Below are positions 22,196-41,367 of a DNA stretch of 51,204 nt, one piece after another (the first letter of the stretch is position 1; every line of letters starts with the position of its first letter). This DNA comes from Candidatus Parcubacteria bacterium (GTDB lineage Bacteria; Patescibacteriota; Patescibacteriia; CAIXNZ01), in the NCBI GenBank assembly GCA_026395685.1, contig JAPLYG010000021.1:1-51204 (forward strand), given 5' to 3'. The position numbers and the translations under genes are program-made. The notes under the pieces were generated by a model that was not told the origin of the DNA, searched no databases, and saw only the letters and a program-made list of their open reading frames with translations.

Positions 22196-23308
22196 CTATA
22201 TTTGAGTTGGGGCGGTTGGCTGAAATTTATTATTTGAAGGTCTGGTTTCAACTAAGCTGTAATACAAAATAACAACAAAGGCTAAGGAAAGAGGAGTAAG
22301 AATCAGCGAAAGAATTGACATCAGTATATTATAAACGATTGATAGTATTAGGTTTTCTCCAACCATGAAGGTAATTATACCGTAAGGTATTACGAGAATC
22401 AGAACTAATGCTAATGATGCCAAGCCGACTACTAATCCGCAGACAAATAACCGAATAAATACATCAAGCCATCTTCCTTTAGTTAAATAATAACTGGATT
22501 TTAATGAGGCGACTCCCTTATTATCCGTATCGGCCAGAATATTCACATAAGGAGCAAAAGTAAACCAGATAGAAAAAATTATTCCCGGGATGACAAAAAG
22601 TATTAGTCCTGCGAAAACAACAAGGAAATTTAAAATATTAGCCCATAAATACGAAGGTACTTTACTAAATGATTCCTCGTAAATTTTCCTCATTTCAACC
22701 GGTTGGCTTAAATACAAGTTGGCAATTATTTTTATTATAACAATTGTAATCCACAGAGAAATGAAAATATAGGCTAAGGCGAATAAAAGGAATCCCAGGA
22801 TGACTAACAGCATAGGAATGCCATAAGTTTCCGCATAAGGCATTACACCAAGTACCAGCATAAAAACCAAGTATGATCCGGCTAGAATTAATAAAGGGTT
22901 AACAAATTGTTGGTAATTATTTTTAAATAAATTCCAGCCTTTTTTTAAAATTTCCCCGATATCTACTAATGGCTTTTCCCCAGGAGTACCTGAAACTAAT
23001 TCTTTTTTTGTCAGGAAATAAATTCCTAGCGGTACGCATACAAATATTCCCAGAAAGCAAAGTATCCCTAATAAGCTTAAAATAGCACTTATTATCCTTG
23101 CTACTGTTGACCTTACGTCACTTTGGCCAATCGGTATATAGTCGGAATTTAAATTTTCAAACTCACCCAGATTTAGATTTCTAAGATCATTAGCGTTTAA
23201 ATTTAGATTTAGTTCCGGCTGAGAAGCCTGGCAGATATTGCTGAAAATCGGGGAGATGGCCAGCAATAGGGCAGCAACCAGCAGAGTTTTAAAAATGATT
23301 TTTTTCAT
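22196..23308 (-). CDS. multi-pass membrane protein, hypothetical
   Basis: Signal peptide plus several TM helices. Confidence 0.7.
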   Translation of the reverse strand: MKKIIFKTLLVAALLLAISPIFSNICQASQPELNLNLNANDLRNLNLGEFENLNSDYIPIGQSDVRSTVARIISAILSLLGILCFLGIFVCVPLGIYFLTKKELVSGTPGEKPLVDIGEILKKGWNLFKNNYQQFVNPLLILAGSYLVFMLVLGVMPYAETYGIPMLLVILGFLLFALAYIFISLWITIVIIKIIANLYLSQPVEMRKIYEESFSKVPSYLWANILNFLVVFAGLILFVIPGIIFSIWFTFAPYVNILADTDNKGVASLKSSYYLTKGRWLDVFIRLFVCGLVVGLASLALVLILVIPYGIITFMVGENLILSIVYNILMSILSLILTPLSLAFVVILYYSLVETRPSNNKFQPTAPTQI

Positions 23309-23330
23309 AAAGTTATAAAATTTTTTAAAT

Positions 23331-23573
23331 TTATATTGTTGCTTGGGTTATCGCATTTATAATAAATTGAGTGATTGCATAAGCGACCAAAATAAAAATC
23401 AAACCAGCAAATGGCGCAATGATCAGGATAACGCCGATTGTTTTATTTTTTTTGCTGACAGCATAGTAGCCGTTTTGTTGTGTCGGATTGGGCTGGGTAT
23501 TTACTTTTGAGCCGCAGCCTTGGCACATGCTTGAATTAGGTTGTAACTCAATACCGCATTGAGGACACTGCAT
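23331..23573 (-). CDS. zinc-ribbon plus single TM protein
   Basis: MQCPQCGIELQPNSSMCQGCGSK then TM helix. Confidence 0.75.
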   Translation of the reverse strand: MQCPQCGIELQPNSSMCQGCGSKVNTQPNPTQQNGYYAVSKKNKTIGVILIIAPFAGLIFILVAYAITQFIINAITQATI

Positions 23574-23599
23574 AAGTTTAGTCTTATTAATTAATAAGT

Positions 23600-24208
23600 T
23601 TATTCAATATAAGTTATTTTGCTTTTGATAATGTTGAGAATGTCTTCCTGGACTTTTTCAATCGGCTGGTTGGCATTGACTGTTAGCCAGTTAAAGTCGC
23701 GGGAAATTTCTTTAAAAGCCTCGCCAGCCTTAGCTAGCATGGCATGATTATTTTCCATCACATTATTTTTGTCAATATTCTCAGGGAACGGTTCGCCTTC
23801 GAATAAAATACCCAAATCTTCTTTTAATAAATGTGAATTCATTTGATAAAGCAGGTTTTTATCCAGTCCCTGAGTCATGCCCCAGGCAATGCCAGTACCG
23901 GTATAATCTTCAGCAATTATCCATTTGCCTTTGCTAAGCTTTTCTTTAAGTGTTTGCTCATGCTGGGTGCGGTTTAAAACCTGAAGCAGCTGAAATTCAC
24001 GCGGTGTAAATTTGTAGGGATTATTTTGGCGCAAATATGTATTGATCAGGGGGCCTGATGGTTCCAGTCCATAGACAGCATATTTAAGATATTCTGCTTC
24101 TTTGCCCATTTGGATAATAATATTTTCCACCAATAATTTAGCTTGCGTGGTTTTGCCCAGATTATTGGCGCCGTAGATGACTATGAATTTGCCTTTGTGA
24201 TTGGACAT
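23600..24208 (-). CDS. second thymidylate kinase-like P-loop protein
   Basis: FIVIYGANNLGKTTQAKLLVE P-loop; same overall layout as tmk at 25423. Confidence 0.75.
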   Translation of the reverse strand: MSNHKGKFIVIYGANNLGKTTQAKLLVENIIIQMGKEAEYLKYAVYGLEPSGPLINTYLRQNNPYKFTPREFQLLQVLNRTQHEQTLKEKLSKGKWIIAEDYTGTGIAWGMTQGLDKNLLYQMNSHLLKEDLGILFEGEPFPENIDKNNVMENNHAMLAKAGEAFKEISRDFNWLTVNANQPIEKVQEDILNIIKSKITYIE

Positions 24209-24252
24209 AGGGGATTTGATTAGGTGAGATTTTATAAAATTTGAAACCTATA

Positions 24253-24331
24253 AACCACAGATTTTATTCACAGATAGCACTGATATTATCTTGTCATCTG
24301 TGGAATCAGTGAGTATAAATCAGTGGTTAAG
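24253..24331. repeat. imperfect-palindrome intergenic element A
   Basis: AACCACAGATTTTATTCACAGATAGCACTGAT...ATCTGTGGAATCAGTGAGTATAAATCAGTGGTTAAG. Confidence 0.85.
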
Positions 24332-24374
24332 ATGTTCCTTAAATATAATTATATTTTATCAGAAAGGCTTGTTT

Positions 24375-24803
24375 TTAGCCAGTTGAACCAAAGCCACCGC
24401 GGGTTTTTGTTTCGATTTGGTCAATTTCCTGCCAGGAGGCAGTATCAATGCGCACAAAGACAGCCTGGCCGATTCTCTGGCCTCTGGTTATATTAACCGA
24501 ATTGTCAGTAAAATTGAAGACCTGTAAATGAATTTCATCCTCAGGGCCGCAATAATCTTGGTCAATAATGCCGATGCCGTGGGGGACAAAAAGCCCTAAT
24601 TTCTTTGGCGTTGAACTGCGCGGTACGACGGCTAACATGTAATTGGGAGGCGTCTGAATTATCAGATTTGTCGGAATTAAGGCTATTTCTTTGGGCTTGA
24701 TTTCCATGTCTATACGAGAATACAAATCAAAGGCAACAGAGCCTTTGGTCTGATACTCTGGTAAAGGCAGGGATTTATCTATTCTCTTTATTTTGACTTC
24801 CAT
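24375..24803 (-). CDS. dut: dUTP diphosphatase / dCTP deaminase-family trimeric enzyme
   Basis: AFDLYSR, PRSSTPKKLGL, GIIDQDYCGP, C-terminal GGFGSTG. Confidence 0.92.
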   Translation of the reverse strand: MEVKIKRIDKSLPLPEYQTKGSVAFDLYSRIDMEIKPKEIALIPTNLIIQTPPNYMLAVVPRSSTPKKLGLFVPHGIGIIDQDYCGPEDEIHLQVFNFTDNSVNITRGQRIGQAVFVRIDTASWQEIDQIETKTRGGFGSTG

Positions 24804-24806
24804 AGG

Positions 24807-25403
24807 TTAAAACTTATTAGCTAAGCCTTTTATAGCTGGTATGTCTTTAAGCAGCATGTAATTTGAGGAACATGCCATGCTTAAGGCTTTGCCCAGTCCT
24901 TTAAATATTGCTTCTGCTTTAAGGCGGTCATTATTGCCATAAGGGACAAAAGTTGTCAGATTACAGGCTGCGCCCTGGCTAAATCCGCTTAAAAATTCTT
25001 TGATATATTCAGTTTTTAAATCGCTTATTTTATGGGTTTTGAATTTTGCTTTAAAAACATTCTGAGCCTTGGCGTTTAAATCCAGCGCAATAATAGCCAG
25101 TGATTCATCAAGAGGAAACGCAAAAAAACCGACGCCATTTAATCCTTTGGCATCCTTGATATAGGTGCGAAAAGCTTTGCCCAGTGAAATGCCGACATCT
25201 TTTACAAAAGAGCGCTGATCCGCCTTGGGGCTGGAAGTAGCTTTGAGGGAAAATAAGAAATTGCCGTTAGCGGCAAATTTTTCCAGGAGGCTGTTTAAAA
25301 AGTTGATGGACGTAGTAATTTTAACTTTGCCCTTAGCGCCGATATTCAGATGAATTTCAATGTTCGTCTCATTTGTCTTGCGCGTAAACTTTATTTCTTT
25401 CAT
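24807..25403 (-). CDS. HisB (imidazoleglycerol-phosphate dehydratase)-fold protein with degenerate metal site
   Basis: RKTNETNIEIHLNIGAKGKVKITTSINFLNSLLEKFA..., FPLDESLAIIALDL, PYGNNDRLKAEAIFKGLGKAL, terminal PAIKGLA; start at MKEIKFTRKTNE (25403). Confidence 0.8.
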   Translation of the reverse strand: MKEIKFTRKTNETNIEIHLNIGAKGKVKITTSINFLNSLLEKFAANGNFLFSLKATSSPKADQRSFVKDVGISLGKAFRTYIKDAKGLNGVGFFAFPLDESLAIIALDLNAKAQNVFKAKFKTHKISDLKTEYIKEFLSGFSQGAACNLTTFVPYGNNDRLKAEAIFKGLGKALSMACSSNYMLLKDIPAIKGLANKF

Positions 25404-25422
25404 AAGATTAGGAAATAAATAA

Positions 25423-26097
25423 TTAGGCGATGACTTTCTTGATTTCTTCCCAGAGCAGATTATGAATTTCTTCAATAGATAATAAGTTGCCGTCTGGGGC
25501 GCAGTTTATAATAATCCAGTTATATTTTTTCGCTACGTACTGATAAGCTTCGGCTGCATTTTTTAAATGTTCCAAATCAGCTTCATGAATGTCTCTTTTC
25601 TGCCCGCCAATATAGTCGCGACTGCCTTTTTTATCAACTAGTTTTTGTCCGATTTCCGGCGGCATGTAAAGTAAAATATTTATATCAGGCTTAGGAATGT
25701 CAAAAAGATTATATTCAAAATCAAAAAGCCATTCCAGGAATTTATCGCGTTCAGCCGGGTCTTTTATTTTTCCGGCTTGATGCCCCATGTTAGAGGAAAC
25801 ATAGCGATTGGAAATAATGATATGGCCTTGGTTAAGCCAGTCTTTAAGCTGAAAAGAGGCATTATAACGGTCACAGGCATAGAAAACCGAAGCCCGGTAA
25901 GGACCTACTTCATTGGCTGTCCCATAATTTCCGTTTAAATATTCTTCAACTAATCCGGCGCTTTTTTTGCCATACTGCGGAAAATCAATAGTTTTGACAG
26001 CCAAATTTTCTTGAGCCAGCTTTTCGACTAATAATTTTGTCTGGGTTGCTTTGCCTGAGCCGTCAGTGCCGTCAATCACGATAAATTTGCCATTCAT
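25423..26097 (-). CDS. tmk: thymidylate kinase
   Basis: FIVIDGTDGSGKATQTKLL, DRYNAS, ISNRYVSSN. Confidence 0.92.
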   Translation of the reverse strand: MNGKFIVIDGTDGSGKATQTKLLVEKLAQENLAVKTIDFPQYGKKSAGLVEEYLNGNYGTANEVGPYRASVFYACDRYNASFQLKDWLNQGHIIISNRYVSSNMGHQAGKIKDPAERDKFLEWLFDFEYNLFDIPKPDINILLYMPPEIGQKLVDKKGSRDYIGGQKRDIHEADLEHLKNAAEAYQYVAKKYNWIIINCAPDGNLLSIEEIHNLLWEEIKKVIA

Positions 26098-26107
26098 AAT
26101 TATAAAA

Positions 26108-27493
26108 TTAAATTTTTATTTCCTGATCCTGATTATAAGGTATATTTTTTTTCAGTGCCAGTTCTGCTTTACCCAGCTCTTTGCCCAAATCAAGGGCATG
26201 GAGAATATCGGAAATAAAAGTAAAAATTTGGTTAAAGACTTCAGTGCTAGTGGCCCCTTCAAATTTCTGGATAAATTGTCCGTCAGGGGAGTAATGGGTG
26301 GCAATTATTTTTCCGTTTTCCAGAGTAATGCCAAAGTTGCCCCGCGGATCCTGCACACATTCTGTTTTGGCTTTATGTTTTTCCACCATTTCCGCGGCAG
26401 CCAGAAAATCACGTTCATAAATATGGGCAGAGTTGGAAATAATGCACAATTTCCCGAGTTTTAAATTTAAAGCATCAGCTATTTCTTTCTGGATTTTGCG
26501 CAAGGCAAAAGAATTCTGAGGCCAGGCGCGATACATATCATTTGACCGGATGTAAGTAGATAAATATACTTTCTCTCTTTGCACTAAAGCATTTACCAGA
26601 TTAATGCAGGGACTTTTGGGATTGCCGGTGTCTTTCATTACATCCCAGGTAAAAGCAATAGCGCGCCGGCTATAATTATTTTCTTTAAGGTCTTTAATCA
26701 CAGCTTCTATTTGGTTAATGCCGTTAAAATTACGAAAGCGGCTGCCATAAGTATATTCGACGCCTTCAAAAATGTGATCGGTCATCAACTGAGGGTAATA
26801 ATTTTCCAGATCTTGCTTATTAAAGTATAAATATTCAGGCAGATAGGGATTATCCGGATCTTCATCATTGATGACGGTGGTGATATTGATTAATTCTCTT
26901 TGCATTTCCGCATACTGGCTCATTTTATTAAGCCCGAATTTTAAAACGCGATCCAAAACTTTCAGCCACAAATCAGCGATTTTTTTATCTTCCAGACGAA
27001 AACAGATTTCTTCGGAAGGATAATCAATTTTTTCCCGTTGCGCCTGGTCTGGAAATTCCAGAGGCTCGCTTATCCAGTCCGCTTTAGGTTGCAGGCTGTC
27101 TAACAAGTTATTAAGTTCATTCTCCTGAATAAAATGGGTATTATCTTTAAACCAAGCGCGAAAAACCTGGATTTTTTCCGCAGGAATCTCCTGATGTAAA
27201 ACCTGCAGACCTTTATTGTCATTAAGAAAATCGCGAAGAAATTTTATGCTGCCTGATAAATCATTGCCCGTAACAATCAGCTTGGTTAACTTGGGATTTA
27301 AAAAAATATTACGGATTATATAGTTAAGGCCTTCTTTGCTATAAAGCTGTCCGATTGCGGCAATCTTATTTTTTTTGGCTTCGGATATTTTTTCAGCAAT
27401 ATGTTCTTTCTTGCTCCACCCGCAAATTATGCCGATAAAGCCGTCGGTATTAGGCGCGATTATTTGATTGGCATAATATTTGGGCCAGGACAT
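26108..27493 (-). CDS. thyA: thymidylate synthase, archaeal-like, with extra N-terminal domain
   Basis: SPCINLVNALVQREKVYLSTYIRSNDMYRAWPQNSFALRKIQKEIADALNLKLGKLCIISNSAHIYERD; RRAIAFTWD; N-terminal FIGIICGWSKKEHIAEKI..LIVTGNDLSGS. Confidence 0.85.
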   Translation of the reverse strand: MSWPKYYANQIIAPNTDGFIGIICGWSKKEHIAEKISEAKKNKIAAIGQLYSKEGLNYIIRNIFLNPKLTKLIVTGNDLSGSIKFLRDFLNDNKGLQVLHQEIPAEKIQVFRAWFKDNTHFIQENELNNLLDSLQPKADWISEPLEFPDQAQREKIDYPSEEICFRLEDKKIADLWLKVLDRVLKFGLNKMSQYAEMQRELINITTVINDEDPDNPYLPEYLYFNKQDLENYYPQLMTDHIFEGVEYTYGSRFRNFNGINQIEAVIKDLKENNYSRRAIAFTWDVMKDTGNPKSPCINLVNALVQREKVYLSTYIRSNDMYRAWPQNSFALRKIQKEIADALNLKLGKLCIISNSAHIYERDFLAAAEMVEKHKAKTECVQDPRGNFGITLENGKIIATHYSPDGQFIQKFEGATSTEVFNQIFTFISDILHALDLGKELGKAELALKKNIPYNQDQEIKI

Positions 27494-27496
27494 AAT

Positions 27497-28048
27497 TCAT
27501 TTTATTAACGAAATAAATTTTTCTGCCTGTTGAAAAGCAGCTTCTTTTGCCCCCTCATTTATTATTGTAAAATCAGCTCTGGCAATGGGACCTGCCTGAT
27601 GCAGATTGGCAATTTGGGAGAAATCTCGGGACTCAACCTGTTCTTTGGTCAGCGGGCGTTCGGGCCGGCTGTTCAACCTTTTAATTCTGGTGACAGGGGA
27701 GGCATAAATAGCCAGAACATAAAAATTATCCCCAAATTCTTTTTTCATTTCCAGATACTCTTCCCAGCTGTATAAACTTTCCACCAAAACGCTTGATTGA
27801 CTGTATAATTCTTTTATTTTAGGAATATTTTTAATGGCCATGGCAGCCATGCCGTATTTGCTCCTTAACTCTTCTCGGATTTGCCTTTCGTTTTGCTCAT
27901 TGACTTCCATTCCTCTTTGCGCCAGTTCATCAAACACAGCCTGGCCAAAATATATATTAGGCCATTTCTGGGTTTGCCGCAGATAATTTATTATTTCTGT
28001 TTTGCCGGCGCCGGGCAGTCCGACGATAGCCAGGATAATATTCTTCAT
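27497..28048 (-). CDS. P-loop nucleotide kinase, UPF0200-like
   Basis: ILAIVGLPGAGKTEIINYL, YFGQAVFDELAQRG, VLAIYASPVTRIKRLNSR, DFTIINEG. Confidence 0.75.
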   Translation of the reverse strand: MKNIILAIVGLPGAGKTEIINYLRQTQKWPNIYFGQAVFDELAQRGMEVNEQNERQIREELRSKYGMAAMAIKNIPKIKELYSQSSVLVESLYSWEEYLEMKKEFGDNFYVLAIYASPVTRIKRLNSRPERPLTKEQVESRDFSQIANLHQAGPIARADFTIINEGAKEAAFQQAEKFISLIK

Positions 28049-28050
28049 AA

Positions 28051-28584
28051 TTATTTTTCCTCTAATTTAATTGCACCTTGATTTATTCTCTCGGGAATAT
28101 CTTCAGAAAATATTTGTTTCAGTTCTTCGTTCCAATCTCGGTTTTCCTGATAAATATCCACTTGCACGCCTGCTTGTTTTAAATACTCAATAGCTTGGGC
28201 AGCCCGGTATACTCTGGCTGCAACTACGCGTTTAATACCGCAAGCCACCACGTATTTAGAGCAATGCATACAGGGAACATATTTAGTGTACATCGTTGCT
28301 CCCACTGTACTGGTTGCTCCTAGAACCGCCGCTTGCAGCAGGGCATTATGCTCGCCGTGAATTGTTCTGATGCAATGGGTTTCTTCCAATAAATGTCCGA
28401 TGTCATGACAATGAGGTAATCCCGGGGGCGCGCCATTGTAGCCAGAGGCAATGATACGATTTTCCTTGACTAAGACTGCTCCGGAATAGAGGCGATCACA
28501 AGTACTGCGGCTGGAAATTATTTTGGCAATGGCCATAAAATAATCGTCCCAGGAAGGACGATAGTGATTGCGTTCTTCAGACAT
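28051..28584 (-). CDS. dCMP deaminase family protein
   Basis: HGEHNALLQAA, VPCMHCSKYVVACGIKRVV. Confidence 0.9.
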   Translation of the reverse strand: MSEERNHYRPSWDDYFMAIAKIISSRSTCDRLYSGAVLVKENRIIASGYNGAPPGLPHCHDIGHLLEETHCIRTIHGEHNALLQAAVLGATSTVGATMYTKYVPCMHCSKYVVACGIKRVVAARVYRAAQAIEYLKQAGVQVDIYQENRDWNEELKQIFSEDIPERINQGAIKLEEK

Positions 28585-28663
28585 AAAATTATAAAAGTTA
28601 TATTTATAAGATAATACTATTTTATCACGCTTAATATAATAAATAAAGGGTAATTGTCAACAA

Positions 28664-28697
28664 AAAAGAACCCCGCCGATGCGAAGTTCTTTTTTAA
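28664..28697 (-). terminator. terminator downstream of rplA
   Basis: AAAAAGAAC ... GTTCTTTTTT. Confidence 0.6.
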
Positions 28698-28707
28698 AGA
28701 AGTTATT

Positions 28708-29409
28708 TTAAATTTGGACTTTAATGCCGGGTCCCATAGTCGAAGATAAGGTGATTTTTTTAATGAAATCTCCTTTAATTGAAGATGGCTTCATTTTTAG
28801 CAAAGTATCCATAAAAGCCTTATAATTTTCAATTAATTTTGCTTCATCGTATTTAGCCTTGCCAATGCTTAAATGAATATTTCCAGTGTCATCAGCACGG
28901 AAAGTGATTTTGCCTTTGGACAATTCTTCAACAGCTTTTTTGATATTCGGGGTAACTGTTTCTGTCTTGGGGTTAGGCATTAAGCCTTTAGGGCCTAAAA
29001 TTTTCGCCACTTTGCCCAGATTTTTCATCATTTCCGGAATAGTTAAGAGCACATCAAAATTGATTTTTTGGGTTTTAGCGATTTCTTCTATCAATTCTTC
29101 TCCGCCGACGATAGTAGCGCCTGCTTCTTTTGCTTCTTTCTGTTTTTCCGGGGTGGCAATGACTGCTATCTTTAGCTTTTTGCCGTTACCATGAGGTAAA
29201 AGAGCAGTTGAGCGAATTTGTTGGTCTGTTTTGCTCGGATCAATGCCGGTTCTGATGGAAATTTCAATAGAAGAGTCAAATTTGGTGGTTGCTGTTTCTT
29301 TAACCAGCTTTATTGCTTCTTCAATCGGATAAGCTTTGTTTTTATCGATTTTCTTGACTAATTCCACATATCTTTTGGAATGCGGCTTGGATTTCGGTTT
29401 TCTTTTCAT
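28708..29409 (-). CDS. rplA: 50S ribosomal protein L1
   Basis: KRYVELVKKIDKNKAYPIEEAI; GLMPNPKTETVT; GNIHLSIGKAKYDEAKLIEN. Confidence 0.97.
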   Translation of the reverse strand: MKRKPKSKPHSKRYVELVKKIDKNKAYPIEEAIKLVKETATTKFDSSIEISIRTGIDPSKTDQQIRSTALLPHGNGKKLKIAVIATPEKQKEAKEAGATIVGGEELIEEIAKTQKINFDVLLTIPEMMKNLGKVAKILGPKGLMPNPKTETVTPNIKKAVEELSKGKITFRADDTGNIHLSIGKAKYDEAKLIENYKAFMDTLLKMKPSSIKGDFIKKITLSSTMGPGIKVQI

Positions 29410-30045: not shown

Positions 30046-30157
30046 GAACCACAGATTTATTTTCACAGATTACACTGATTTTCCAGTGAGAAGCCCAAAT
30101 TAATGGCACTAGAATACTTATATATCTGTGGTATCAGTGAATAAAATCAGTGGTTAA
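30046..30157. repeat. imperfect-palindrome intergenic element B
   Basis: AACCACAGATTTATTTTCACAGATTACACTGAT...ATCTGTGGTATCAGTGAATAAAATCAGTGGTTAAG. Confidence 0.85.
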
Positions 30158-30161
30158 GATA

Positions 30162-41214: not shown

Positions 41215-41230
41215 AATATTGTAGTTTCAA

Positions 41231-41348
41231 AACCACGGATTTTTTTCACAGATAACACGGATAGGTGTTAGTTATTTATATTCTACCATGTAGCTTATAG
41301 ATTGGTAAAAGATTAATCTGTGCAATCTGTGAATATGTGTCTGTGGTT
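41231..41348. repeat. imperfect-palindrome intergenic element C
   Basis: AACCACGGATTTTTTTCACAGATAACACGGAT...AATCTGTGCAATCTGTGAATATGTGTCTGTGGTT. Confidence 0.85.
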
Positions 41349-41367
41349 CGGTTTTCCTTAGAATCAC

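Follow-up and report, generated by a model that had tools for sequence, protein, structure and literature searches.

An imidazoleglycerol-phosphate dehydratase homologue stripped of most metal ligands in a dTMP biosynthesis operon of a Candidatus Parcubacteria bacterium

The window, a 51,204-nt stretch of a Candidatus Parcubacteria genome (contig JAPLYG010000021.1 of assembly GCA_026395685.1), carries a run of genes on the minus strand encoding, in order, a dCMP deaminase of the ComEB type (28051–28584; PF00383, E 2e-22; TIGR02571, 144.6 bits), a P-loop nucleotide kinase (27497–28048; PF13238, E 2.3e-11), the thymidylate synthase ThyA (26108–27493), a protein of the thymidylate kinase family, Tmk (25423–26097; PF02223, E 1e-19; NF005923, 122 bits), an imidazoleglycerol-phosphate dehydratase (IGPD, HisB) homologue referred to here as HISB* (24807–25403), the dUTP diphosphatase Dut (24375–24803; TIGR00576, 116.8 bits, over the cut-off), and a second thymidylate-kinase-like protein, Tmk2, conserved in the family (23600–24208; PF02223, E 1e-15). 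The tmk gene ends 19 nt upstream of HISB*, and dut starts 3 nt past the HISB* stop codon in the junction sequence. Because these spacers are so short, HISB* would be transcribed and translated together with tmk and dut. The original prediction had placed the gene inside a dTMP operon with dut and tmk as neighbours, and both the annotated neighbours and the spacing agree with this. No Rfam RNAs were found within 23200–29000.

The 461-aa ThyA combines an N-terminal extension, a thymidylate synthase core of the methanogen type and a C-terminal PterinBD-DUF4346 region; it has distant relatives in Thermoproteales (L086, L087) and may use an unusual pterin. Tmk and Tmk2 are two different thymidylate-kinase-like proteins, both scoring under the dTMP kinase equivalog cut-offs. 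It is Tmk2, not Tmk, that is present throughout the family, and its substrate may differ from dTMP.

The HISB* frame runs from an ATG at 25403 to a stop at 24807 on the minus strand, the coordinates originally predicted, and encodes 198 aa with neither internal stops nor frameshifts. All 144 positions of the Pfam profile PF00475 aligned with the protein (118.8 bits, E 2.7e-34; curated cut-off 27), and among solved IGPDs the best phmmer match was 6fwh (E 5.7e-26, residues 2–193), as expected from the near full-length alignment that had been proposed. HISB* thus is a member of the IGPD/HisB family PF00475. The best NCBIfam HisB model reached 155.8 bits against a cut-off of 231, and every equivalog cut-off was missed; searches of PADLOC and PHROGs matched nothing. 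HISB* resembles IGPD (EC 4.2.1.19) in its length, in the near-gapless alignment of residues 2–193, and in the RxTxET start, the DE of the PLDESLA motif and the C-terminal PxxKG, whereas it departs from IGPD in its metal ligands and most phosphate contacts (below), in having two histidines in total and a pI of 9.8, and in its location in a dTMP operon of a genome without the his pathway as tested.

Two AlphaFold runs with four sequences each gave low-confidence models (mean pLDDT 50.5 and 54.3; pTM 0.45 and 0.61). When both models were searched with Foldseek, as the original prediction had proposed, all matches at E ≤ 1e-3 were IGPDs, with a TM of about 0.6 for the second model. Homology is the better basis for assigning the fold, and the predicted structures agree with it. 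Ribosomal protein S9 chains were apparently among the weak Foldseek matches, and HISB* has its fold partly in common with ribosomal-protein-S5-domain-2-like proteins, many of which are basic and bind RNA. These proteins differ from it in being unrelated by sequence, their fold matches reaching E 0.07 at best, and they serve only as an analogy for a possible anion-binding role.

According to PMC4509728, each Mn of IGPD is held by three histidines and one glutamate, the metal sites are situated between chains of the 24-mer, and in Arabidopsis IGPD2 the Mn2 ligands are H73, E77, H145 and H170, the phosphate contacts are Q51, H55, R99 and K177, then R121, S199 and K201, and proton transfer involves E21, D108 and E173. 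We inferred the Mn1 set (H47, H74, H169, E173) from the internal repeat of the IGPD fold. At the Mn2 positions given in that paper, HISB* carries R64 for H73, K68 for E77, E136 for H145 and L161 for H170; at the inferred Mn1 positions it carries S38 for H47, S65 for H74 and R160 for H169, and only the equivalent of E173 (E164) is retained among the eight metal-ligand positions. Of the phosphate contacts listed there, K177 (K168) and K201 (K192) are kept, while Q51 is replaced by K, H55 by N46, R99 by G90, R121 by K and S199 by A190. The listed proton-transfer residues E21 (E12), D108 (D99) and E173 (E164) are all kept.

For comparison with 26 ordinary HisBs, conserved columns were defined as those at least 90% identical across these proteins (51 columns in total). 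The H145 column is not invariant, with 54% identity among ordinary HisBs, and the other seven ligands are kept by 26/26. HISB* retains one of these seven, two of six conserved phosphate columns and 23 of 38 other conserved columns. None of the six invariant histidine columns is kept, compared with 26 of the remaining 45 conserved columns (Fisher p 0.0098); the losses are targeted at the metal site and not evenly spread. The two Mn(II) sites of a functional IGPD are missing, six of the seven invariant ligands being replaced and the H145 position being Glu. Because its metal ligands are lost, HISB* very probably does not dehydrate imidazoleglycerol phosphate. The motif changes read in the original prediction (DHML to NSLL, HHTxED to RSFVKD, HHxxE to RLKAE and PSTKG to PAIKG) were all recovered; its statement that the metal ligands are gone holds for seven of the eight positions, and the glutamate of the last motif (RLKAE) is retained. 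The description as a HisB-fold pseudoenzyme is backed by the sequence, the fold search and the ligand loss.

The retention of E12, D99, E164, K168 and K192, together with neighbours whose products act on deoxynucleotides, would suit a new metal-free nucleotide or pterin enzyme that reuses these acid-base residues and phosphate lysines. A preferential keeping of the old active-site pocket was considered and dropped: five of nine non-histidine active-site residues are kept, the same as at other conserved positions, so these data give no support for a newly formed active site. The changes of R99, S199 and H55, the existence of the relatives' operon without HISB*, and our failure to identify a missing step of dTMP synthesis for it to fill also speak against a metal-free enzyme, which we consider improbable.

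The histidine pathway was probed in the HISB* genome through three families (hisB, hisD and HisA/HisF). HISB* itself is the one PF00475 match, and hisD was not found by a search that was positive in 13 of 14 controls. The original prediction had noted no his genes nearby, and it would have been contradicted by a his operon or an intact HisB copy elsewhere in the genome; the single PF00475 match and the absence of hisD anywhere in the genome leave it standing on both counts. The sole PF00977 match was weak and partial (32.5 bits, positions 60–142) and lay in a 304-aa PyrD-like ORF flanked by two ORFs that look pyrK- and pyrF-like on visual inspection; it is most likely a dihydroorotate dehydrogenase and not HisA/HisF. 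If HISB* were a working IGPD whose metal site is unusual, the homology over the whole length of the protein would be explained, but with no more than one of the eight metal ligands remaining, and with neither hisD nor HisA/HisF to provide a pathway around it, we find this reading scarcely credible.

HISB* was sought among relatives. The PF00475 family is rare in these bacteria (2/57 relatives). With the HISB* protein as query, matches were obtained in 9/381 genomes of the class sample and 8/380 of the phylum sample, the HISB* genome being counted in each, and in 1/3 and 3/49 genomes of two other classes; the samples overlap, and the genome handles, which run up to G742, correspond to about 740 distinct genomes. 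HISB* was absent from all eight other genomes of its family. No second ligand-less copy was found in the approximately 740 genomes of the phylum, IMG/VR, phages or plasmids, and degenerate-pattern searches of genomic and viral collections with the protein returned no close relatives. HisB matches in phage and plasmid records were ordinary-looking only, and so annotated where annotated; the best "phage" match is an unverified faecal scaffold.

Other HisBs of Patescibacteria (e.g., L012, L013 and L015) are nearest to HISB* by sequence (34–36% identity) and by tree path, whereas, unlike HISB*, these three keep all invariant ligands. Typed neighbours of L012 are hisD, a HisC-type aminotransferase, a HAD phosphatase, a HisH-type amidotransferase and HisA/F, and those of L013 are hisD and a HisH-type amidotransferase. 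The aligned HisB matches retain their ligands except in G068, whose divergent HisB (L019:7786–8448) lies between hisD and a HisH-type amidotransferase and has QH in its first HH motif (QHVVWED). The terminal branch of HISB* measured 4.07 against a median of 0.47, and the tree was unable to place the protein, the branch being too long and the composition unusual. Selection on HISB* is not measurable by dN/dS, since a single genome carries it.

Seven operon loci of the family were read directly; the rplA..thyA..tmk2..gatB stretch was present and HISB* was absent from all of them, and a ThyA-based scan for syntenic loci gave 11 loci, none with HISB*. In the genus-mate G001 (L078 by contig coordinates), thyA, tmk and tmk2 follow one another with a 115-nt gap and without HISB* and dut; the same arrangement was seen in G006 (L069) and in the Falkowbacteria contig L077, whose coordinates match G007. 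G005 has a thyA::tmk fusion followed by dut and tmk2, with ThyA and Tmk apparently in one 692-aa open frame (L067:11116–13194), in G002 and G004 a more distant thyA precedes dut and tmk2, and in G003 a distant thyA occurs with tmk2. A 204-aa ORF between thyA and dut in G004 (L066), considered as a hidden divergent IGPD, was rejected as hydrophobic and membrane-like, with no Pfam match. An arrangement with dut ahead of tmk2 probably goes back a long way in this family; HISB* has been added to it in the one case observed, and several members have neither HISB* nor dut. Genes are readily gained and lost in this stretch. A conserved component of the thymidylate operon would recur beside thyA, tmk or dut in related genomes, and in those sampled HISB* does not: the conserved linkage that the original prediction had proposed to look for, and whose absence it had named as a refutation, was not seen (0/8 family genomes, 0/7 operon loci), HISB* being known from a single instance. 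Its suggestion that the fold may have been repurposed for dTMP metabolism has partial support at most: members of the family share the operon in which HISB* lies, but the gene is missing in relatives and known from one locus only.

Such a unique occurrence in a draft genome of 23 contigs could arise by assembly or binning error. HISB* lies inside a 51-kb contig, however, flanked on either side by operon genes in the order usual for the family, and its codon use and GC are similar to those of the neighbour genes; genome completeness is 100 and contamination 0.54, and an assembly error would not swap six ligands yet leave the frame open. An artefact can be given almost no weight.

Recent decay is a serious rival to the pseudoenzyme reading. 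HISB* would then be a horizontally gained or relict hisB, selected until recently and now drifting, whose frame has stayed open by chance and whose place in the operon is accidental. Its confinement to one genome of those sampled in the family, its long terminal branch, the ready gain and loss of genes in this region and the missing remainder of the his pathway, as tested, are all consistent with this, as is the GC by codon position (0.42, 0.35 and 0.40), which differs less between positions than it does for most genes here and would fit relaxed constraint. On the other hand, the purine periodicity typical of coding DNA is retained. To gauge the open frame, four intact CPR hisB genes were mutated without selection at assumed mutation rates, with substitutions but no frameshifts, and read at the point where the conserved non-ligand columns had fallen to the HISB* level (identity to the ancestor about 60%). 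By then a run had acquired about 4 stops on average, and 0.3–1.7% of runs were stop-free, a share that frameshifts would lower further; ligands were as few as in HISB* in 2–5% of runs. HISB* keeps 37 of 41 core hydrophobic columns, equalled in 15–19% of matched neutral runs. The frame of 198 codons and the concentration of losses on histidines speak against simple decay, though not decisively, and the simulation is compatible with a gene selected until recently. We regard decay as possible and less likely than the reading that follows.

We favour, at a probability of roughly 45%, the reading that a hisB gene came to stand between tmk and dut and that HISB* is a lineage-specific IGPD-fold pseudoenzyme that lost its dinuclear Mn site but has been maintained as a folded protein, expressed together with tmk and dut and perhaps binding an anionic partner. 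Because Mn ions cannot bind at the chain interfaces described for the 24-mer in PMC4509728, HISB* probably remains a small oligomer and not a 24-mer. The protein has a net charge of +14, compared with −11 to +8 in the 26 ordinary HisBs, although basic proteins rich in lysine are no rarity in the window (MiaA, L1). This strongly basic character and the kept phosphate-site lysines K168 and K192 suggest that its likeliest partner may be phosphorylated or polyanionic, namely a nucleotide, a nucleic acid or an enzyme of the operon. The more specific proposal, that the metal-stripped fold has been selected for a new role in deoxynucleotide metabolism, either working as an enzyme without metal or, being basic, binding or regulating Tmk, Dut or ThyA, is possible but less likely than not.

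HISB*, a single instance with a putative function, is better described as a promising candidate than as a discovery. IGPD depends on Mn and is highly conserved, and a natural, foldable, metal-free version without its pathway would, if true, show reuse of the fold; such a homologue would also test the need for the Mn sites in forming the 24-mer shell. When a reduced genome keeps a gene but not the pathway it belongs to, this hints at an unrecognised function. Within the open-licence literature, we found no work pairing the name of IGPD with the word pseudoenzyme.

The dut–tmk2 spacer contains a dispersed palindromic repeat (24225–24345) with 32 matches in the genome. It is an imperfect, REP- or MITE-like palindrome of ~85 nt, seen also at 30047–30160 and at about 41230–41360, which occupies spacers of the HISB* operon and of nusG-rplK; weaker matches occur in G005 and G001. 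The repeat possibly had a part in rearranging this stretch or in the insertion of HISB*.
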